From: Microcoleus sp. FACHB-831
GTDB lineage: Bacteria; Cyanobacteriota; Cyanobacteriia; Cyanobacteriales; FACHB-T130
Assembly (NCBI RefSeq): GCF_014695585.1
Contig: NZ_JACJON010000061.1
Span: 62,001-126,000, forward strand
Direction: 5' to 3'
DNA: 64,000 bases
Shown here: positions 10,792 through 21,047 of the stretch, piece by piece
Layout of the letters: each line of letters opens with the position of its first letter
How positions within the stretch are numbered: position 1 is the stretch's first letter
The notes under the pieces: model-generated
The model's input: the letters and a program-made list of their open reading frames with translations, nothing else
Told to the model about the DNA's origin: nothing
Databases searched by the model: none
Translations under genes and position numbers: made by a program

Positions 10792-11430
10792 CTAGAATCT
10801 AAAAATGCCTTGACAGGGAGCAAACGATCTTCGATGCAAAGGGGTGGGGCCATGTTGTTGCAGTGCCAAAAGATGCTGCGCCGTGCCGTAACCTTTATTT
10901 TTAGCCAGATCGTACTCTGGATACAATGCTTCCAAACCCATCACCAATTCGTCGCGCCACACCTTAGCGATGATGCTAGCAGCAGCAATAACCAAAGATT
11001 TTTCATCACCCTTGACTATAGTTTGTTGCTCAAAAGGCATATCTGGCATCTTCCACTTGCCATCGACAAGACAAAGTTGCGGCTGAACCTTCAGACTAAG
11101 AACAGCCCGCTTCATTGCCAGTAAAGAGGCATGGAAGATATTAATATTATCAATTTCATCATTAGAGGCAGCGCCAATTTGCCAATCAAGCGCTGCCTCT
11201 TTAATTTGTATCGCTAATTGTTCGCGACGCGATCGCGACAGCTTTTTACTGTCTCTTACTCCGGCTGGTAAGAGTTTCTCTACAGCAGGCTTGGGTAAAA
11301 TCACCGCAGCCGCAACCACAGGGCCAAACAAGCAACCCCGACCCACCTCATCTACACCAGCCACAAGTTCAAAAGAGCAGGACAACTCTGGCAAATCTTC
11401 TAGATTGAAATGGGGTCGGGGCGATCGCAT
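10792..11430 (-). CDS. rnhB: ribonuclease HII
   Basis: RNase HII cuts RNA in RNA-DNA hybrids and at single ribonucleotides misincorporated in DNA. The 212-residue product has the catalytic GVDEVGRGCLFGPV motif (near residues 24-37), LVDGKWKMP, and the AAASIIAKVWRD block with metal-binding acids. It lies downstream of rne on the same strand with a 224-base gap; an rne-rnhB pairing is known in other cyanobacteria. Length is normal. Confidence 0.95.
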   Translation of the reverse strand: MRSPRPHFNLEDLPELSCSFELVAGVDEVGRGCLFGPVVAAAVILPKPAVEKLLPAGVRDSKKLSRSRREQLAIQIKEAALDWQIGAASNDEIDNINIFHASLLAMKRAVLSLKVQPQLCLVDGKWKMPDMPFEQQTIVKGDEKSLVIAAASIIAKVWRDELVMGLEALYPEYDLAKNKGYGTAQHLLALQQHGPTPLHRRSFAPCQGIFRF

Positions 11431-11654: not shown

Positions 11655-13841
11655 TCATTCTGTCGGTGTGGTAGAAGACCTGGATCTTTTTCGAGTACGA
11701 CGGTTGACGGGCGTGCTGCCATCTGATTCGCTGGGCGTCGTTGCAGCATCTGGCTCAGGCTGAAGTTCAACTTGAGGTTCTTCCTGCTCCAAAGACATTG
11801 TATACCCGCTATCTAAAGGGGTTTCCGTTGTAGTCTCATCAACCGAATAATCCTCTGTGGGAGCAGGAGCATCGTAGGGGCGGTTGCCGACAAAGTTCGG
11901 CGCAAAGCTTTCTGCCGCTAATATTTCTCTAGGACGTTCTTCTCTAGGACGTTCTTGTGGTGGTGCGACTATAGGTGCTTCCCCAGGTGCAGTAATGTTG
12001 ATAATCGCAGATTTAGGATTTTTCACCTCCACATTTGCCAGCACCCAAGGAGGAATCCCCGCCTCAGCAAAAAGATCCTGTTGTTTGGGCGTCATTTCGA
12101 TGTAAACAATCTCTGGAGGCTCGATTTCTTGTCTGTTCGGCTTAGGACGTTCTAATTTCGGCCCTCGGCGAACTTCCTCGACAGTAGGTAGGGTAGGTAG
12201 GGGTTGAGCTACCTCCGGCATCCAATCTGCTGGCTCCTCTTGAAGTCTCTCAGGTTCGGCTATCTGACGAGGCATCAAAGGATTCCCTGTAGAAGTAGGA
12301 GATGACATCCGCAGCCGACTCTGAGCGGCTTCCTCCCTCACGGGAGATTCACTACCACGCGGGGGGCGAGTGCTGCCGCGGCGACGACGGTTTCGGTTGT
12401 TATTTCCACCGCCCTGGTAGCTGGGATGATTCATCAGGTCCATTGACTGATCGTCATTACCTGAGTCTAAATCTAAGCTTTCGCTGCGTGGTTCCCATGT
12501 GTCAGCTTGGGGGGGTTCGCGCAACGCCCGTACTTCCCTTGCCACCACAGGTTCCGGCATTTCCCCTCCATTTAGTTGGGTTGCACCTGGTAGATGGACG
12601 ACGTGCCCCAAGCCACCACAAGCGGGGCAGGGATTGCCAAACAATTCGTAGATATTTTTGCCTTGGCGTTTCCGAGTTAGTTCTACTAAACCAAGCTCGG
12701 AAAGTTGTGCAATTTGCGGACGAGCTTTATCTGCTTTCAGCGATTTGTTGAATTGTTCGAGCAGTTGTAGCTGGTCGCGACGCGAGTCCATGTCAATAAA
12801 GTCAACAATAATTACACCCGCAATATTCCGCAGGCGCAGTTGGCGGGCGATTTCTGTTGCTGCCTCGCTGTTAGTCCACAAGACTGTTTCTCGCGCTGTG
12901 GCGGAGCGGGTAAAGGAACCAGAGTTGACATCGATGACTGTCAGCGCTTCGGTAGGCTCGATGATGATGTAGCCACCCGAGGGAAGGTCTACTCTTGGCT
13001 TGAGGGCTTCTCGAATTGCAGCATTGACGCGGAAGTAATCTAGAATCGAGTTGCGACCATCTTTGGCTGGTGCTTCGCTAGGTCGGTAATGATCGATTAA
13101 CAAGCCTTCTGGCGACTTGCCACCGCTCCAGCTGAGTAAGTATTGCTTAACTCTTTTTACTCCTGTGTGCGAATCTACAACAATGCGATTTACATCCGCA
13201 CTGTACATATCCCGCAGTACCCGCTGAATAAAATCATCGTCGCGATTAAGCAAAGCTGGGGCACGAGTAGAGGTAGCTTCTTGCTGGATGGACTCCCACT
13301 GTTTTTGCAAAGCTTCCAAATCTTCGATGATCGCTTCTTCGGCTCGACCTTCTGCTTCAGTTCGTACCAATAAGCCCATACCAGAGGGTTTAATCAGAAC
13401 CGCCAGCGCTCTCAGGCGGTTGCGCTCATTTTCATTTTTGATTCGCGTTGAGAGGTTCACACCCCGCCCGAAAGGCATCAAAACCAGATAGCGTCCCGGC
13501 AAGGTGATGTTCCCAGTCAGCCTGGGGCCTTTGTTCCCCGTAGGCTCTTTCATAACTTGCACAAGAACTTTCTGCTGGGGCACTAGCAATTCTGTAATAG
13601 CACCAGCTGTACGTTTTAGCCGCAATGGGCCGAGGTCAGTTACGTGAATAAAGCCATTGCGCTCGGCATCGCCAATGTTAACAAAAGCGGCATCTATCCC
13701 TGGTAATACGTTTTCAACAATGCCGTGATAAATGTCTCCTACCTGATGGTTCCCGGTGGCAACGACGAGTTCTTGAATTTGATCTTCCCAAAATACGGCA
13801 GCAATCCGATGCTGTTCTGCGATAATAATTTGCTTTGGCAT
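11655..13841 (-). CDS. rne: ribonuclease E/G
   Basis: RNase E is the main endonuclease of mRNA decay and rRNA/tRNA processing. The N-terminal half (about residues 1-415) has the S1 domain, the catalytic aspartates in TVIDVNSGSF and IIVDFIDM, and the Zn-link CPACGG. The second half is low complexity, with an Arg-rich patch NRNRRRRGS and a basic C-terminus RRTRKRSRSS. A conserved Arg-rich C-terminal peptide recruits polynucleotide phosphorylase in cyanobacteria, and this tail fits that role. A long leader with hairpins lies upstream, so autoregulation through the 5' UTR is likely. Confidence 0.95.
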   Translation of the reverse strand: MPKQIIIAEQHRIAAVFWEDQIQELVVATGNHQVGDIYHGIVENVLPGIDAAFVNIGDAERNGFIHVTDLGPLRLKRTAGAITELLVPQQKVLVQVMKEPTGNKGPRLTGNITLPGRYLVLMPFGRGVNLSTRIKNENERNRLRALAVLIKPSGMGLLVRTEAEGRAEEAIIEDLEALQKQWESIQQEATSTRAPALLNRDDDFIQRVLRDMYSADVNRIVVDSHTGVKRVKQYLLSWSGGKSPEGLLIDHYRPSEAPAKDGRNSILDYFRVNAAIREALKPRVDLPSGGYIIIEPTEALTVIDVNSGSFTRSATARETVLWTNSEAATEIARQLRLRNIAGVIIVDFIDMDSRRDQLQLLEQFNKSLKADKARPQIAQLSELGLVELTRKRQGKNIYELFGNPCPACGGLGHVVHLPGATQLNGGEMPEPVVAREVRALREPPQADTWEPRSESLDLDSGNDDQSMDLMNHPSYQGGGNNNRNRRRRGSTRPPRGSESPVREEAAQSRLRMSSPTSTGNPLMPRQIAEPERLQEEPADWMPEVAQPLPTLPTVEEVRRGPKLERPKPNRQEIEPPEIVYIEMTPKQQDLFAEAGIPPWVLANVEVKNPKSAIINITAPGEAPIVAPPQERPREERPREILAAESFAPNFVGNRPYDAPAPTEDYSVDETTTETPLDSGYTMSLEQEEPQVELQPEPDAATTPSESDGSTPVNRRTRKRSRSSTTPTE

Positions 13842-14306
13842 TCAATTTCCTCAAAAATTGGCAGCGCTAGAGAAGGCAAAAGGTAAAAGGCAATAAGGCA
13901 ATATAAAGAATCTTTTCTTTTTACTTTTGCCTTTTTACTTTTTCTTATTCTGTGTGCCTATCACTTTTGCTAAAAGAAATAAGGGTATGAGCGTGAAACT
14001 CTGTACGGACGGGTTTGTTTTTACCTTGTGTTTGCATGACAGCAAGGATAGATTTTTAACCCGCCCCTACTTAGAGAGAAGCAAACGGGTGATTCACCCA
14101 GAGCGACTGATTACAGTGACAGCCTTCTGAGTAAAGGGATCGGGAATCAACTGGTGGCCAGTACCATGCCTTTCCGAAAAGGCTGTGTACTGGATTTTGC
14201 CAAGAATCAACAGAAAGTCTCTTAGAAGCCAGTTGCGTCCAGCATTCATGGCTGGTTCACAAGGGCGGCAACCGGATGAAGCCTCAATCCGCAACCGCTT
14301 CTCTTG
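13842..14306 (-). promoter_or_regulatory. structured rne 5' leader
   Basis: About 465 bases lie between the inferred start site and the rne ATG. Near the 5' end, TCACAAG pairs with CTTGTGA (14257-14263 with 14303-14309), enclosing GCGG/CCGC and GGAT/ATCC stems. A second hairpin at 14158-14193 has 7-bp and 6-bp stems (CCAGTAC/GTACTGG and GCCTTT/AAAGGC) capped by a 4-base loop. A U-rich stretch next to the start codon (13874-13932) can pair with an A-rich one. RNase E is known to cleave U-rich sites in its own leader in cyanobacteria, which makes this a plausible feedback element. Confidence 0.6.
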
Positions 14307-14312
14307 TGATGT

Positions 14313-14318
14313 ATTATA
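14313..14318 (-). promoter_or_regulatory. -10 box of the rne promoter
   Basis: The minus strand reads TATAAT exactly at these positions. Transcription would begin near 14306, at the foot of the first leader hairpin. No TTGACA-like -35 is visible at 16-18 bases upstream, which is common in cyanobacterial promoters. Confidence 0.5.
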
Positions 14319-14659
14319 TCGCGCCTTTAGTCAGATCCTACTCTAGTCCGCGGGGGTTGCGTTAGCGTTAAAAAGCATAGGGCATTCACTTTTAAGGTCC
14401 GAGAACCTAAGCAGGAACCTCAAGGGTTAGTACACAAAGCCTTCCAGGACAGTTATTCTATTTCCATCTGCTCCGGTCAGCGTCATCTAGATGTTTTAAG
14501 CAAAGCTTATAGCTTATCGAGGTTGCTATAACATCTTGTGAAGAACATGGTTCAATTTAATTTTGGCGATGCAACTCTCGTAGACGAATTTGCGATCGCC
14601 CCTTTGCCCGATCGCCTCGAACATGATACTAGCGATCTTGAACGCACAATAGCAATCCT

Positions 14660-15850
14660 CTAGTTTGTAGCCTGCGGACGGAGACTTTGGATAGTAGCGA
14701 TCGCTGTATTTGCTACTTGACTAATTTCTTCTTGCGTGGTGTACCTACCGATTCCAAACCGCACCGAGGCATAAGCCAGCTTTTCCGAGCGTCCCAGCGC
14801 CATCAGGACGTGAGAGGGAGCAGTTTTGGTAGAACTGCAAGCGGCTCCGGAAGAAACTGCGACTATCGGCTGCAATCCCAATGACAGCGCCGCTCCATCC
14901 ACACCCTCAACGCTAATATTGAGGTTTCCTGGCAATCGCTGTGTGGGATGACCGTTGAGATGAATTCCCTCAATACAGCTCAAAGCTTCCCACAATTCTT
15001 GCCTTAGCTGAGTCAGACGTTGAGCCTCTGATTCTCGTTCAGCCAGTGCTAGTTCCACCGCCTTGGCAAAGCCGACAATTTGGGGAGGATACAGAGTACC
15101 AGAACGCATCCCCCGCTCGTGTCCACCGCCATGCAGTTGCGGTGATAGCTGTACTCTAGGATTGCGCCGTCGGACGTAGAGTGCGCCGATGCCTTTGGGG
15201 CCATATACTTTGTGGCCAGTCAGCGACATCAGATCAATTTTCATCGCATCCACATCCAGATGAATTTTACCAATAGCTTGAGCGGCGTCAGTGTGGAATA
15301 AAACTTGACGCTGACGACACATTGCCCCAATTTCAGCTAGTGGCTGTATTACCCCAATTTCGTTATTAGCCGCCATCACCGAGACTAAAATCGTATCGGC
15401 ACGTAAAGCTTTCTCTAGTTGAGATAAATCGATCAGTCCATCACTTTGGACTGGTAGGAAAGTGACTTCAAAGCCCAAAGTCTGCAAATACTCGCAGGGG
15501 TCGAGAACCGCGTTATGCTCGGTTTGCACGGTGATGATGTGACGCCCCTTGCTGAAATAGGCTTCGGCAACACCTTTAATAGCTAAATTGTTTGCCTCAG
15601 TAGCGCCGCTAGTGAAGACAATTTCCTCTGGCGTGGCGTTAATAGCATCTGCCAAAGTCTGCCGCGCTTGCTTAACAGCAGCCTCCGCTTCCCAGCCGTA
15701 GAGGTGGCTAATGCTGGCAGGGTTGCCGAAATGTTCTGTGAAATAGGGCAGCATAGCGGCTAGCACCCGTTCGTCGAGGGGTGTTGTCGCGTGGTTGTCG
15801 AGATAGATGGGTCGGTTAGTCAATTTTTCCTCTGCGGTTACACCTACCAT
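14660..15850 (-). CDS. iscS: cysteine desulfurase, NifS/IscS class
   Basis: This PLP enzyme removes sulfur from cysteine as a persulfide and passes it to Fe-S cluster and thio-cofactor synthesis. The 396-residue product starts its fold at YLDNHATTP. The PLP lysine lies in SLTGHKVYGPKG (near residue 208) and the catalytic Cys in SSGAACSS, which is the long-loop group I form. No scaffold or regulator gene (iscU, iscR) adjoins it. It could act in housekeeping or in nitrogen-fixation Fe-S supply; nothing here decides. Confidence 0.92.
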   Translation of the reverse strand: MVGVTAEEKLTNRPIYLDNHATTPLDERVLAAMLPYFTEHFGNPASISHLYGWEAEAAVKQARQTLADAINATPEEIVFTSGATEANNLAIKGVAEAYFSKGRHIITVQTEHNAVLDPCEYLQTLGFEVTFLPVQSDGLIDLSQLEKALRADTILVSVMAANNEIGVIQPLAEIGAMCRQRQVLFHTDAAQAIGKIHLDVDAMKIDLMSLTGHKVYGPKGIGALYVRRRNPRVQLSPQLHGGGHERGMRSGTLYPPQIVGFAKAVELALAERESEAQRLTQLRQELWEALSCIEGIHLNGHPTQRLPGNLNISVEGVDGAALSLGLQPIVAVSSGAACSSTKTAPSHVLMALGRSEKLAYASVRFGIGRYTTQEEISQVANTAIATIQSLRPQATN

Positions 15851-15923: not shown

Positions 15924-16478
15924 ATGACTATGAGCATTCAGGATTTAGAAAGACTGCAAGAGAAGCTGCAAGAAGATAAGCGTGACTACCAACTGGAACT
16001 GCGGGAGGGAAAAATTGTAGTCATGGGGCCATCAGATATCGAATCGAGCGAAATTGGGGCAGAATTGATCAGACTTCTAGGTAACTGGGTTAAGCCTCGG
16101 CGTCTCGGACGGGTGTTTGATTCTAGCGGTGGGTTTATCCTGCCGAATACAGACTTGCGGGCACCAGATGTTTCATTTGTCTCAGCAGATAGACTAAAGC
16201 GAAGCCAGCGCTACTTTGCCTCGCTGGTTCCAGATTTGGTGGTGGAAATTAAATCTTAAAGCGATCGCATCTCTACATTGAAAAAAAAAGTAAAATTATT
16301 CTTGAAAGAAAAAGCGCGGGTTGGCATACTAATCGATCCAGATAAGCTAACTGTAAGTGTTTATCGTCCCACTGGTGAACTGGAAGCGCTGGCATCGGAT
16401 GACAAGCTTACTATTCCTGATTTGTTTCCAGGGTGGGAAATCTCAATTTCTGAACTGTGGCCGCCTGTATTTGAGTAA
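15924..16478 (+). pseudogene. Uma2-family endonuclease gene with an in-frame stop
   Basis: The first part (111 codons) shows the PD-(D/E)XK-like Uma2 fold: PNTDLRAPDVSFVS and the catalytic block PDLVVEIKS. A TAA at 16257-16259 then interrupts it. The same frame continues as SDRISTL..., ...GILIDPDKLTVSVYRP... and ends PDLFPGWEISISELW at 16478, exactly the usual Uma2 C-terminus. No frameshift is needed: one substitution (for instance CAA or AAA to TAA) explains it. The family is very abundant in cyanobacteria. It lies divergent to iscS. Confidence 0.85.
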
Positions 16479-16569: not shown

Positions 16570-18807
16570 TTAGCGCGATCGCCACACCTCAATTTTCCCA
16601 TCCTCACCATTACTAACTATGGTTTTACCATCCGGGCTGAAAGTAACAGCATTAACATTGCCTGAACGATTAGAAATGCTGCTTTCTAGTTCTCCCGTCT
16701 GCACTTTCCACAGCTTAATAGTTTCGTCCCGACTACCGCTAGCTAGCGTCTTACCATCTGGGCTGAAGGCAACAAAATTAACATAGTCTTTATGGGCAGA
16801 GATACTATGCGTAGGACTGCACGGCTGCGCCCCTTTACAACCGCTCAAAATTTGCCCTAGATTCCACAGATGAACTTTGTTATAAATATCGCTGCTAGCG
16901 AGAGTCTGTCCATCCGGACTTATGGCAAGCGAAGGAATGGTATTGCCTGTAGGTTCAGCAACGCTACTAATGAGCGTCCCTGCGGGTAAATTCCAAACCT
17001 TGATCGTCTTATCGTAACCGCTACTGGCAAGAGTCTTTCCATCAGGACTGACAGCAACAGTTAAAACAAATTCTGAATGCCCTTTGAGAGTATTTTTTAG
17101 TTGTCCCGTGCTGGGATTCCAAAGCTTAATTGTTTTGTCCTTATTACCACTAACAAGAGTCTGTCCATCGGGAGTGAAAGCAACAGAAAAAACGCGGTTT
17201 TCAGAATTAGATTGCAGGGTTTGCAACAGTTGGCCAGTTTGGAGATTCCAAATTTTAACTGTTCCATCACCGCTGGCACTGGCTATCTTCTGTCCATCCG
17301 GGCTGAAGGCGACGGAATAAATATAGTCTGAATGCCCTTTAAGGGTAAATAGCCGTTGTCCCGTGCTGAGATTCCAAACATTAATAGTGTTGTCATTACT
17401 ACCGCTAGCGAGGTTCTGCCCATCAGGACTGATAGCGATCGCATTAACTTCCTTTGAATGACCGCTCAAAGTTTTGGCTAAAGAAATATTTTCTCCACGA
17501 TTCCAAGAACTATTTGACCCACCTAATGACTGGGATGTATTATTTGAGTTAGTTAGCGACGATTGACTATTTAGTTTGGGCAAGTAGTAAATTCCAAATA
17601 TCGCAACTAAAGCAGTAGCAATACCCGTTCCAATTACAGACAAACGCCGTAACTTTTTGCGAGAATTAGCAACACCTTCGGCGTTGTTAATCTCGATACC
17701 TGTCTTGGGTAGAGAGGACTCAGCAAAATTAGGGCTTGTTGGGTGGGATAGTGCGGTTTCAGCAGGTAATTTAGAGTTCGCGGATGGTTGAGTTAAATTA
17801 GACGGTATTAACTCAGCTGCGGAGGTATCGTACTGCTGTTGCGAACCAGCAATATCTCTGATTGTCTGTTCTACAGATGGCGATGTTTGAAGCGGCTGTG
17901 TAGAAGGCGATAGTGGTTTGGTCAGGTCATCTAGAGGCGGCGTTAGTTTATGAGTGGGTGTACTATAAGCCTGGGTTGACTGTTGCGAATTGACTAACTC
18001 AAGCGCCTGCAAAGTATGTGTTACGGTTTGATACCGCTGACGATAGTCATAGCGCACCATTTTGTCTAAAACATCTGCTAGCTGCTGGCTGACATTCGCG
18101 CGATCGCGCCACATTAATTCGCTGGTTTCGGAGTCGAATGGCAGCCCGTTAGCAGGTATCCCCGTAAGCGCTTGTATGCCAATCATTCCCACTGCATAAA
18201 TGTCGCTACAAAATTTGGGATTGCCGCTAAGTTGTTCGTTGGGCATATAACCAGGCGAACCAATAGCAACTGTTAAAGTTGTTTGTCCGAGAGATTTAGC
18301 TTCCCTTGCGCTAACTTCTTTTACGGCTCCAAAATCTATTAAAAATATTTTACGGTCTTGCTGGCGTCTGATTAAATTTGATGGCTTAATATCGCGGTGA
18401 ATGACATCTTGCTTATGCACAAACTCTAAGACTTTTAAAATGTCCAGCAAAATGGCAATAACTTTTGCTTCGCTTAGTTGTTTACCTAATGGTAATTCTG
18501 CTTTAAGTTCATTACCTTCAATAAATTCTTGAACTAGATAAAATTCTTTATCTTCCTCAAAATGAGCCAAAAGATTGGGAATTTGCTCGTGTTTGCCTAA
18601 GCGATACAATACTTGTGCTTCGCGATCGAATAAACGTCGGGCGATCGCTAAAGTATCCGCATCTGTAGCTTGGGGCAATAGTAACTTGACAACGCACAAC
18701 GGGTTGCCTGGTAGCTGACGATCTGAGGCAAGGTAAGTTTGACCAAAGCCTCCACCTCCCAAGTGTTTGACGATGTGATAGCGACCACCGAGCGTTTTTC
18801 CCAGCAT
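16570..18807 (-). CDS. membrane Ser/Thr protein kinase with WD40 propeller
   Basis: An N-terminal Hanks-type kinase (about residues 1-270) has the glycine loop LGGGGFGQTY, the VVK lysine, HRDIKPSNLI and DFGAVKE. A low-complexity linker leads to one membrane span near residue 390-410 (GTGIATALVAIFGIYYL). Seven WD40 repeats, each with an SPDGXXLAS core, complete one propeller, probably outside the cytoplasm. Blade 5 carries an insert with two cysteines (CKGAQPC). It is the tandem paralogue of the gene at 18906 and may sense an extracytoplasmic signal. Confidence 0.92.
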   Translation of the reverse strand: MLGKTLGGRYHIVKHLGGGGFGQTYLASDRQLPGNPLCVVKLLLPQATDADTLAIARRLFDREAQVLYRLGKHEQIPNLLAHFEEDKEFYLVQEFIEGNELKAELPLGKQLSEAKVIAILLDILKVLEFVHKQDVIHRDIKPSNLIRRQQDRKIFLIDFGAVKEVSAREAKSLGQTTLTVAIGSPGYMPNEQLSGNPKFCSDIYAVGMIGIQALTGIPANGLPFDSETSELMWRDRANVSQQLADVLDKMVRYDYRQRYQTVTHTLQALELVNSQQSTQAYSTPTHKLTPPLDDLTKPLSPSTQPLQTSPSVEQTIRDIAGSQQQYDTSAAELIPSNLTQPSANSKLPAETALSHPTSPNFAESSLPKTGIEINNAEGVANSRKKLRRLSVIGTGIATALVAIFGIYYLPKLNSQSSLTNSNNTSQSLGGSNSSWNRGENISLAKTLSGHSKEVNAIAISPDGQNLASGSNDNTINVWNLSTGQRLFTLKGHSDYIYSVAFSPDGQKIASASGDGTVKIWNLQTGQLLQTLQSNSENRVFSVAFTPDGQTLVSGNKDKTIKLWNPSTGQLKNTLKGHSEFVLTVAVSPDGKTLASSGYDKTIKVWNLPAGTLISSVAEPTGNTIPSLAISPDGQTLASSDIYNKVHLWNLGQILSGCKGAQPCSPTHSISAHKDYVNFVAFSPDGKTLASGSRDETIKLWKVQTGELESSISNRSGNVNAVTFSPDGKTIVSNGEDGKIEVWRSR

Positions 18808-18905
18808 GACGTTAATACAGTGTATTTATCCGCTAGTCTAGCCTTGTCAAGCGGCATTAGGCAGAAATTGCTTTAGCGTGACTAAGCGATCGCTGCTTTA
18901 CTGGG

Positions 18906-21047
18906 TTACTGCGATCGCCAAATCTTAATCGTGTTATCTGCTTTACTGGCGCTGACGAGAAGTTGACCATCAGGGCTAAAGGTGACAGCATCAACAAAGC
19001 CTAACTGGTTAGATATGGTGCTTTTCAATTCTCCGGTTTGCAGATTCCACAGCTTAAGTGTCCCGTCCAAACTACCGCTGGCTATAGTATGACCATCCGG
19101 ACTGATGGTGATGGATCGAATCTCATCTACATGACCGGAGAGAGTGCGTACAGGCAAACAGGCTTGTGCGCCCTTACAGTTTGCGACTAAATTTCGCAAA
19201 TTCCATATGCTAATTGTGTTGAAACTGCTGCTAACTAGGGTATTCCCATCCGGGCTAATAGCAACAGAGGAAACGGGATAGTTTGAGGGGTCGGACAAGC
19301 TAAGCAGCAATTGTCCCCTAGCCAGATTCCACAGTTTGATTGTCTTGTCTTTGCTACCGCTGACAAGACTCTGGCTATCTGGAGTAATGGCGACAGATGA
19401 AACAAAGTCAGTATGCCCTTTCAGGGTGTTTTTTAGTTGTCCCGTCCGTATATCCCACAGTTTAATTGTCTTGTCTTTACCACCGCTGGCAAGAGTCCTA
19501 CCATCAGGACTAAAGGCAACTGAAAAAACCCAGTCTGAATGTCCCTCAAGTGTAGTTCTCACTTTTGCGCTGCTAGGATTCCAGAGTTTGATGGTTCCGT
19601 CCGCACTGCTACTAGCAAGGGTCTTACCATCGGGGCTGAATGCAACTGAATAAACCCAATCTGAATGCCCCATTAGGGTGCGCTGCGGTGCGCCATTGGG
19701 CAAATTCCAAAGTTTGATGGTGTTGTCTAGACTACCGCTGGCGAGGGTATATCCATCCGGGCTGATGGCGAGAGAATAAACCTGACCTAAATGCCCGGAT
19801 AGGGTGTTGGCTAAAGAAATATTTTCTACTCGATCCCAAGGACGATTTAGCGTTTGAAAATAATAAATTCCGCTTGCCAATGCTAAAGCAGTGGCGATAC
19901 TTGCTCCCGCTGCGATCGCGCGACGAGGTTTGGTGAAAAACTTAAAAATACTAGGCTTGCGATCGCGTAAATCTGAATGCGCCTCCCGTATATTATTCCC
20001 ATTTTCCAACATTGTCTGTTGGTCAGATAGCGCGTTCTCAGGCCGCAATTCTCCTTGAGGTCTCGATGAATTTTCTCCAAAAGCCTCGGTTGCCTGCTGC
20101 TTAAATGTCAGCGTTTCAGACCGCAGTTTATCGGTTGTTTGTGAAACAGGAGAGGCGGATGCGCGAGCAGGAATATTATCCTTTGAGATAGTAAAAGTTT
20201 GCGTTGGCAGCTCGGCATCGACTAACTGAAGGGCAGCAATAGCCTCTGCCGCTGTTTGGTAGCGTTGTCGATAGTCATACCGCACCATTTTGTCTAAAAC
20301 ATCTAGTAGCGACGGCGCATAAACAGCCTCCGCAGGCAAGCGATCGCGCCATATAATTTCGCTAGTTTTGGGGTCTTCTGGCAGCCCGTTAGGAGATAAT
20401 CCAGTAAGGGCTTGAATACCCAGCATCCCCACAGCATAAATATCACTACAGAATCGCGGTTTGCCTCCTAGTTGCTCGTTGGGCATATAGCCTGGAGACC
20501 CAATACAAACCGTAAAACTTGTCTGTCCTTCAGTATTAATTGTCTGCGTGCTGACTTGTTTAACTGCCCCAAAGTCAATCAAAACTAACTTGCCGTCTTG
20601 CTTACGCCTAATTAAATTTGATGGCTTAATATCTCGGTGAATGACATCTTGCTGATGTACAAATTCTAAAATTTTTAAAATTTCCATCAACAGGTCAATT
20701 ACCTTCGTCTGACTCAAGCCATTGCCAGCAGATAATTCCAGCTTTAGTTCATCACCTTCGATAAATTCCTGAACTAAATAGAACTCTTGCTCTTCTTCAA
20801 AATGAGCCAAAAGTCTAGGAATCTGATCGTGGCTTCCTAGCTGGTACAACGTTCGCGCTTCTCTATCAAATAAGCGCCTTGCTACCTCTAAAGTCGTGGC
20901 ATCTGTACCCTTGGGCAAGAGTAGCTTGACGACACACAGGGGGTTGCCTGGTAGCTGCTTATCCGAGGCAAGATAAGTTTGACCAAAGCCTCCGCCTCCC
21001 AAGTGTTTGACAATTTGGTAGCGACCACCAAGCGTTTTTCCTAGCAT
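18906..21047 (-). CDS. membrane Ser/Thr protein kinase with WD40 propeller, second copy
   Basis: Its architecture matches that of its neighbour: kinase at about residues 1-270 (LGGGGFGQTY, HRDIKPSNLI, DFGAVKQ), Ser/Thr-rich linker, a membrane span near 375-395, and seven WD40 repeats ending WRSQ. The linker is shorter and diverged, while the kinase start and last blade are well conserved with the neighbour. Blade 5 has the same two-cysteine insert (CKGAQAC). The 98-base gap between the two genes contains no clear terminator. Substrates are unknown. Confidence 0.92.
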   Translation of the reverse strand: MLGKTLGGRYQIVKHLGGGGFGQTYLASDKQLPGNPLCVVKLLLPKGTDATTLEVARRLFDREARTLYQLGSHDQIPRLLAHFEEEQEFYLVQEFIEGDELKLELSAGNGLSQTKVIDLLMEILKILEFVHQQDVIHRDIKPSNLIRRKQDGKLVLIDFGAVKQVSTQTINTEGQTSFTVCIGSPGYMPNEQLGGKPRFCSDIYAVGMLGIQALTGLSPNGLPEDPKTSEIIWRDRLPAEAVYAPSLLDVLDKMVRYDYRQRYQTAAEAIAALQLVDAELPTQTFTISKDNIPARASASPVSQTTDKLRSETLTFKQQATEAFGENSSRPQGELRPENALSDQQTMLENGNNIREAHSDLRDRKPSIFKFFTKPRRAIAAGASIATALALASGIYYFQTLNRPWDRVENISLANTLSGHLGQVYSLAISPDGYTLASGSLDNTIKLWNLPNGAPQRTLMGHSDWVYSVAFSPDGKTLASSSADGTIKLWNPSSAKVRTTLEGHSDWVFSVAFSPDGRTLASGGKDKTIKLWDIRTGQLKNTLKGHTDFVSSVAITPDSQSLVSGSKDKTIKLWNLARGQLLLSLSDPSNYPVSSVAISPDGNTLVSSSFNTISIWNLRNLVANCKGAQACLPVRTLSGHVDEIRSITISPDGHTIASGSLDGTLKLWNLQTGELKSTISNQLGFVDAVTFSPDGQLLVSASKADNTIKIWRSQ

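Follow-up and report, generated by a model that had tools for sequence, protein, structure and literature searches.

The RNase E gene (rne) of Microcoleus sp. FACHB-831 is preceded by a long, conserved and structured leader, which we consider, with reasonable confidence, to be a cis-acting structured 5' untranslated region by which RNase E would limit its own synthesis. Conserved features of this leader comprise a -10 box, three helices (P1, P2 and P3) showing compensatory change, a linker, a module whose exact form was found only at rne, and near-exclusive linkage to rne. A structured RNase E leader of the feedback type represents a known kind of element; the structure described here is new.

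The window, i.e., the whole stretch of 64,000 nucleotides analyzed, contains the following features, listed in the direction of transcription of rne.

14660-15850, minus strand: gene encoding an IscS-like cysteine desulfurase, upstream of rne.
14318-14313, minus strand: TATAAT -10 box, conserved in the aligned leaders.
14290-14301, minus strand: left arm of P1, GAAGCGGUUGCG, pairing with 14237-14224 (swap tests, pair counts).
14224-14237, minus strand: right arm of P1, CGCAACUGGCUUCU, with one bulged G (same evidence as for the left arm).
14219-14212 (GACUUUCU) and 14211-14219 (GACUUUCUG), minus strand: open single strand (linker) between P1 and P2 (conservation in 39 leaders).
14158-14193, minus strand: P2, a two-part hairpin with a UCGG loop (fold, swap test, double changes).
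About 14092-14135 (ends approximate), minus strand: P3 hairpin, UUUACUCAG with CUGGGUGAA plus an inner stem (swap test).
13956-14082, minus strand: 3' conserved block with a tentative P4 (CUCUC..CAGAG) (nhmmer alignment).
About 14070-14006, minus strand: extra segment inside the tentative P4, single copy in the genome.
13871-13948, minus strand: A-rich/U-rich inverted repeat, a dispersed repeat inside the leader just before the ribosome-binding module.
13842-13860, minus strand: ribosome-binding module CAAUUUUUGAGGAAAUUGA, immediately 5' of the AUG.
11655-13841, minus strand: rne, encoding RNase E of 728 amino acids (NCBIfam NF052586 RnaseECyano, 1028.6 bits against a cut-off of 900; Pfam RNase_E_G).
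10792-11430, minus strand: rnhB, downstream of rne.

The matches to NF052586 and Pfam RNase_E_G bear out the naming of the gene in an earlier note on this DNA, whose observations on the leader were partly confirmed overall and whose interpretation was partly supported. The gap between the desulfurase gene and rne comprises 818 bases and contains the leader, which extends over 477 bases from the TATAAT box to the AUG on the minus strand, 5' of rne. Folded as a whole, the leader reached a z-score of -4.2 and was more stable than 100 of 100 shuffled versions, in agreement with the long structured leader claimed previously. The element thus sits in the untranslated region 5' of an RNase E gene, and its secondary structure is conserved with compensatory changes. 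A minus-strand frame of 66 amino acids lies inside the leader at 14094-14294; a coding reading of the leader was rejected based on the distance between the -10 box and the linker, which shifts by single bases among relatives (97 to 118). Elsewhere in the window, a frame of 111 amino acids stops at 16257-16259 and an open frame in the same frame resumes at 16278-16478, so that 15924-16478 looks like one broken gene. Moreover, two neighbouring paralogous genes occupy the minus strand at 16570-21047 and appear, by eye on their translations, to encode serine/threonine kinases with WD40-type repeats.

The TATAAT box proposed in the earlier note was found no more than 35 bases upstream of the RNA model in 32 of 39 aligned leaders (commonest spacing 13 nt), among them all ten leaders from outside the order. 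A sigma-70-type scan found no -35/-10 pair and nothing above chance, and the promoter call therefore depends on the conservation of the -10 box. Since this box is conserved ahead of the model, the 5' end of the RNA very probably lies a few bases ahead of P1, with a predicted start near 14306; transcription would thus start just past TATAAT, and the RNA would open with the P1 domain.

P1 is both the minimum-energy and the centroid fold of 14305-14219 folded alone. Its right arm lies about 60 bases downstream of the left arm, and in the window GAAGCGGUUGCG pairs with CGCAACUGGCUUC. Corresponding pairings were recognized by eye in relatives, namely AAUUGCA/UGCAAUU in G002, GGAACAGUUGC/GCAACUGUUCC in G204, GUUGU/ACAAC in G104 and GUAGU/ACUAC in G024. 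Covariation was evaluated by a swap test, in which the pairing energy of a left arm with its own right arm is compared with that obtained with the right arms of other species, and which depends little on the alignment; the near-copy G051 was left out. Five of six control window pairs gave no signal, and one gave 39/2000. For P1, the mean energy with the own partner was -19.2 kcal/mol versus -16.6 kcal/mol with the partners of others, and 3 of 5000 permutations were as good (n=17); for 38 leaders the value was 0/2000, and for the ten leaders from outside the order alone the signal was weak (117/5000). The halves of P1 performed less well than the whole helix (inner half 29/5000, outer half 230/5000). 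The sub-helices P1a and P1b within P1, which had been derived from folding or by eye, were unsupported (392/5000 and 1228/5000) and were rejected.

P2 consists of 7 bp, a 3x3 internal loop, 6 bp and the UCGG loop; its z-score was -5.2 and none of 200 shuffled versions was as stable. The hairpin at 14158-14193 thus exists as drawn in the earlier note, with stacked stems and a tetraloop. The compensatory changes that the earlier note set as a check are also present, with a swap value of 2/5000 (n=17) and double changes such as CCAG/CUGG to CCAA/UUGG, and support the view that this is a conserved RNA of regulatory type and not a chance fold. Some members have lost P2 or carry a replacement. For P3, no permutation out of 5000 was as good in 17 leaders, with a z-score of -2.1 and 4 of 200 shuffled versions as stable. 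P1, P2 and P3 hence co-vary beyond the swap controls. The tentative P4 downstream is AU-rich with a variable U-run, and in several relatives' leaders the 3' conserved block ends about 50 bases 5' of the AUG.

Pair counts were obtained from two alignments. In A4, a plain MAFFT alignment of 17 leaders (G117 left out) that was not fitted to the model, 12 of the 24 pairs of P1 and P2 showed double changes, a number reached by 35 of 500 shuffles, and the covariation score was 0.315 versus 0.262 in shuffles (0/500), slid versions reaching at most 0.190. The number of pair types in A4 did not stand out (136/500 shuffles). Counted on a tree of rne coding DNA, A4 contained 19 double-change events, compared with 4.4 +/- 1.7 when the partners were mixed (0/500). 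The alignment of 39 leaders (38 distinct; L322 left out by E-value) was fitted to the model and thereby favours the model's structure; in it, 20 of 24 pairs showed double changes (29/500 shuffles), the score exceeded all shuffles, and 52 double-change events were counted versus 9.5 +/- 3.4 (0/300 as high). RNAalifold returned no structure for the first full alignment, which is gappy. Unsupported sub-helices such as P1a and P1b would fit a chance fold in a long untranslated region, but this explanation is hardly credible given that P1, P2 and P3 survived the covariation tests and that the model is specific for rne genome-wide.

A further stem at 14257-14309 had been singled out in the earlier note. 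The minimum-energy fold of the full leader contains it, yet the comparative evidence favours P1, and the stem was rejected: its swap value was 10/5000 (n=17) with a mean of -8.4 kcal/mol versus -19.2 kcal/mol for P1 (whose windows are longer), and in a larger set with overlapping windows it gave 167/5000 (37 leaders) and 1553/5000 (27 leaders of the order). As this stem crosses P1, no single nested fold holds both, and its bases form P1 when the 5' domain is folded alone. It is conceivable, though quite unlikely, that the P1 domain acts as a two-state switch, one state of which would be acted on by RNase E or another factor. The GAAGC of the P1 left arm would then have two rival partners, a local GCUUC at 14282-14278 and a distant GCUUC at 14229-14225; as transcription proceeds, the local hairpin would arise first and give way once P1 is complete, and a factor acting on one state would expose either the linker or the leader farther downstream. 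Both partners track changes of the left arm in part of the core clade (67/10000 and 130/10000), while one of four control windows gave 153/3000 and the 12 left-out leaders, ten of them from outside the order, gave no signal (5402/10000). Because one control lies near 0.01-0.02, single values in that range, including those of the two-state test, need care.

The linker adjoins the downstream side of a helix and is well conserved in the 39 leaders, with A, C, U and U reaching 90% and the flanking g, u and c 70%. For Synechocystis sp. PCC 6803, binding of RNase E to a short hairpin, with cleavage of AU-rich RNA just downstream of it, has been reported (PMC10989929). The arrangement seen here, with a stable helix and then a conserved open U-rich strand, agrees with this cutting rule, and feedback by RNase E is favoured on this ground. 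According to this proposal, the GACUUUCU strand would be kept open by P1 and P2 on either side of it. RNase E would bind to the structured domain and cleave the adjacent U-rich strand, perhaps together with the U-run that overlaps the ribosome site, and an excess of the enzyme would in this way remove its own message. Candidate RNase E cut sites are accordingly GACUUUCU and UUUUUGAGG, the linker being a candidate for either cleavage or binding. In several leaders from outside the order the linker reads ACUUC, and the published +2U preference is therefore not met everywhere.

The leader of Synechocystis is also the closest described counterpart in that it is long, belongs to the same gene and phylum and contains a U-rich site, as far as the published description allows comparison. 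It comprises 583 nt and is cut by RNase E at a U-rich site at +228, and autoregulation of rne via this leader has been proposed (PMC10989929). The cut lies about 130 nt farther from the RNA start than the linker of the present leader, which occupies about +88 to +96 relative to the predicted start. A six-uridine site about 228 nt from the predicted start does not occur in the window, six-U runs being present in the P4 region of G067 and G224, and among 153 leaders searched by the published distances no Synechocystis-like one was found. For Synechocystis it was moreover estimated that 95.9% of the polymerases stop before the coding region, which its authors regard as the main factor (PMC10989929). 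Transcription attenuation, whereby the leader would mainly stop or pause polymerase before rne, with P1, P2 and P3 shaping the nascent RNA and cleavage being secondary, would be in line with this estimate. However, the single sense-strand terminator candidate that the scan returned for the leader, at 14100-14086, lacks a clear U-run in its tail; the number of terminators in the scanned 2 kb was at chance (3 versus 2.4 expected), and inspection of the leaders by eye revealed no conserved GC stem with a U-run, P4 being AU-rich with its variable U-run. Attenuation is therefore considered unlikely as the main function. Separate 5'-leader transcripts of rne have also been reported to accumulate in Synechocystis (PMC10989929), as would be the case if a cleaved or terminated leader were a stable small RNA acting in trans; this is very unlikely here, where the supported pairs all lie within the leader.

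The distribution of the element was also analyzed. A DNA search in 40 relatives matched the leader within the family and more weakly in further families. As query positions 412-497 (U-rich/A-rich) recur in the genome, rne itself was located in relatives, namely in 148 of 148 genomes of the order, providing 147 upstream regions (one genome lacks the start of the gene). With an iterated sequence profile, 29 of these 147 regions were matched at E<=0.01, the conserved blocks being the -10 box, the stretch ending in GACUUUCUG, P2, the third hairpin and the 3' block. RNA models were built from the linker and P2 (R1), from P1, linker and P2 (R2) and from the 39 leaders (R3); the genome-wide scans scored the top candidates that a permissive preliminary pass gave in each genome, i.e., 12 for R1, seven for R2 and ten in a search of the class.

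Among the best 12 candidates of each of 388 genomes of the order, R1 matched in 23 genomes at E<=0.01, once per genome; the 20 matches with E<=5.7e-4 were all located 5' of rne on its strand, and the other three (E 0.007-0.009) were not. When 150 candidates were scored in 20 genomes of one family, there was at most one match per genome, in ten of the 20. R2, with the best seven candidates of each genome, matched in 46 of 388 genomes at E<=0.1, and 28 of the 30 best matches precede rne, the exceptions being L305 (8e-6) and L306 (8e-5); 17 of the 28 belong to the training set and 11 do not, two of the latter being near-copies. Six matches below the best 30 were looked at (L322-L327), one of which precedes rne. 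Applied to 80 named loci, R2 matched 25 times at E<=1; the 13 strongest of these matches are upstream of rne on its strand, and the weaker 12 include other places and the other strand. A class sample of 291 genomes, scored for the best ten candidates each, yielded 14 matches at E<=0.001, comprising the window, G018, ten leaders from outside the order and two others. The ten all precede rne (eight in family f48, one each in f40 and f58) and account for ten of the 12 matches outside the order; for L321 no rne start was found nearby, and L320 lies at a contig end. The covariance search suggested in the earlier note thus placed nearly all of the stronger matches upstream of rne, which strengthens its claim.

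The near-exclusive linkage to rne, with one strong site per genome, also bears on the possibility that the leader is bound by some other factor controlling rne expression, such as a metabolite, a small RNA or an RNA-binding protein, which would recognize the stretch around GUAAACUAGCAAURGAUGCUG inside P1. In the core clade this stretch shows good sequence conservation although no pairing is supported for it, as might be expected of a recognition site, and Rbp proteins have been suggested as candidates in Synechocystis (PMC10989929). Nevertheless, the linkage fits self-regulation better than a shared ligand or regulator, and such a platform appears improbable.

R3 matched 23 of the 147 sampled rne upstream regions of the order at E<0.01 (18 + 5), indicating that the architecture is lineage-specific, though autoregulation may be general. 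The architecture is a property of some lineages inside and outside the order and is not universal; named carriers include Kastovskya adunca, Aphanothece sp. CMT-3BRIN-NPC111, Coleofasciculus sp. LEGE 07092 and Symploca sp. SIO3C6. Other conserved blocks were seen in 37 loci (L228-L280), mostly rne upstream regions of Nostocales going by the genus names of the records, with a shared consensus ending in GUGCUGCCAAUUUUUGAGGAAAUUGA. These leaders possess a strongly conserved block of their own (consensus AAAAATCAACCACGGACGGTTGATTTAATTGCTTAA), a hairpin by eye, followed by the ribosome-site module; the block may represent a second class of rne leader. As separate observations, the P1 left arm is tandemly duplicated in L288 and L289 (genomes G067 and G146; in G067 GGAACAGUUGCUGAUCA and then GGAAUAGUUGCUGAUCA), so that two copies compete for the single right arm, and in family f2 weak P1-domain matches (L095, L096, L097 and L102; E 3e-4 to 0.85) lie about 800-1200 bases 5' of rne, which would mean either that the leader is very long there or that a small gene intervenes.

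At its 3' end the leader carries the ribosome-site module, UUUUUGAGGAAAUUGA ahead of the AUG. Its exact form TTTGAGGAAATTGNATG, searched with no mismatch allowed, was present in 22 of 40 genomes in one copy each, in all 22 at the rne start codon, while the reversed control gave 0; of 153 leaders, 94 contain the shorter form TTTGAGGAA in their final 24 bases. Judging from this pattern, the module is more specific than a ribosome site requires, and its exact match only at rne points also to control of translation start. Neither the inner P1 stretch nor the linker gave a signal for pairing with the ribosome site. The U-run before GAGGAAAUUG resembles the AU-box of Synechocystis psbA2, where AU-rich RNase E sites reach into the ribosome site (PMC10989914); the psbA2 leader differs in being short (49 nt) and in belonging to a different gene.

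With respect to the U-rich site beside the start codon claimed in the earlier note, the short U-run of the module at 13860-13842 stands, whereas the large U-rich/A-rich pair at 13871-13948 is present as sequence and is a dispersed repeat, not a conserved site. It gave 19 matches in its own genome, the leader included, corresponding to 14 other places, some of them matched on both strands. It is composed of 7-bp tandem units and its fold was only modestly stable (z-score -1.7; 11 of 200 shuffles as stable); in the 64-kb window the repeat unit is not enriched (6 matches versus 3.8 expected). The repeat is absent from six other leader ends compared, G001 and G003 holding other extra sequence there. 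The extra segment at about 14070-14006 is partly common to these two family members; its interpretation as a mobile repeat was discarded, since a genome search gave the one copy only. Some relatives' leaders comprise about 340 bases, and the leader in the window is longer because of these two insertions.

Finally, the leader was compared with known families. No Rfam family, including rne5 (RF00040) and rne-II (RF01756), matched in the window at gathering scores, and neither of these two matched 13700-14500 even at E<=10. The rne5 element is a structured leader of the RNase E gene serving as a feedback sensor; RNase E of E. coli autoregulates via its leader, for which hp2 and hp3 provide the precedent. 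RF00040, the enterobacterial rne5 with its hp1-hp3 anatomy, differs in helix layout from the leader described here. The rne-II element is likewise the leader of an RNase E gene. It takes its name from the RNase E gene and is a structured RNA that comparative genomics revealed in Pseudomonadales, i.e., in another phylum than that of the present leader (PMC2864571). For several cyanobacteria, rne leaders of 458-622 nt have been reported, and the authors of the Synechocystis study stated that details of the control tied to such long leaders had remained unknown; the main text of that study contains no words beginning with 'covariation' or 'Rfam' (PMC10989929). Within the open-access literature searched, a limited body in which subscription papers are mostly uncovered, no covariance analysis of and no RNA family for cyanobacterial rne leaders was found.

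RNase E is reported to be indispensable in the cyanobacteria tested (PMC10989914). The leader would add a further structural class of RNase E leader to the two families in Rfam; if so, phyla would seem to have arrived at different structures for the feedback leader of one and the same enzyme. For a clade outside the model strains it provides a defined RNA architecture, including a covariance alignment, specific base pairs that can be mutated and two candidate sites of cleavage.
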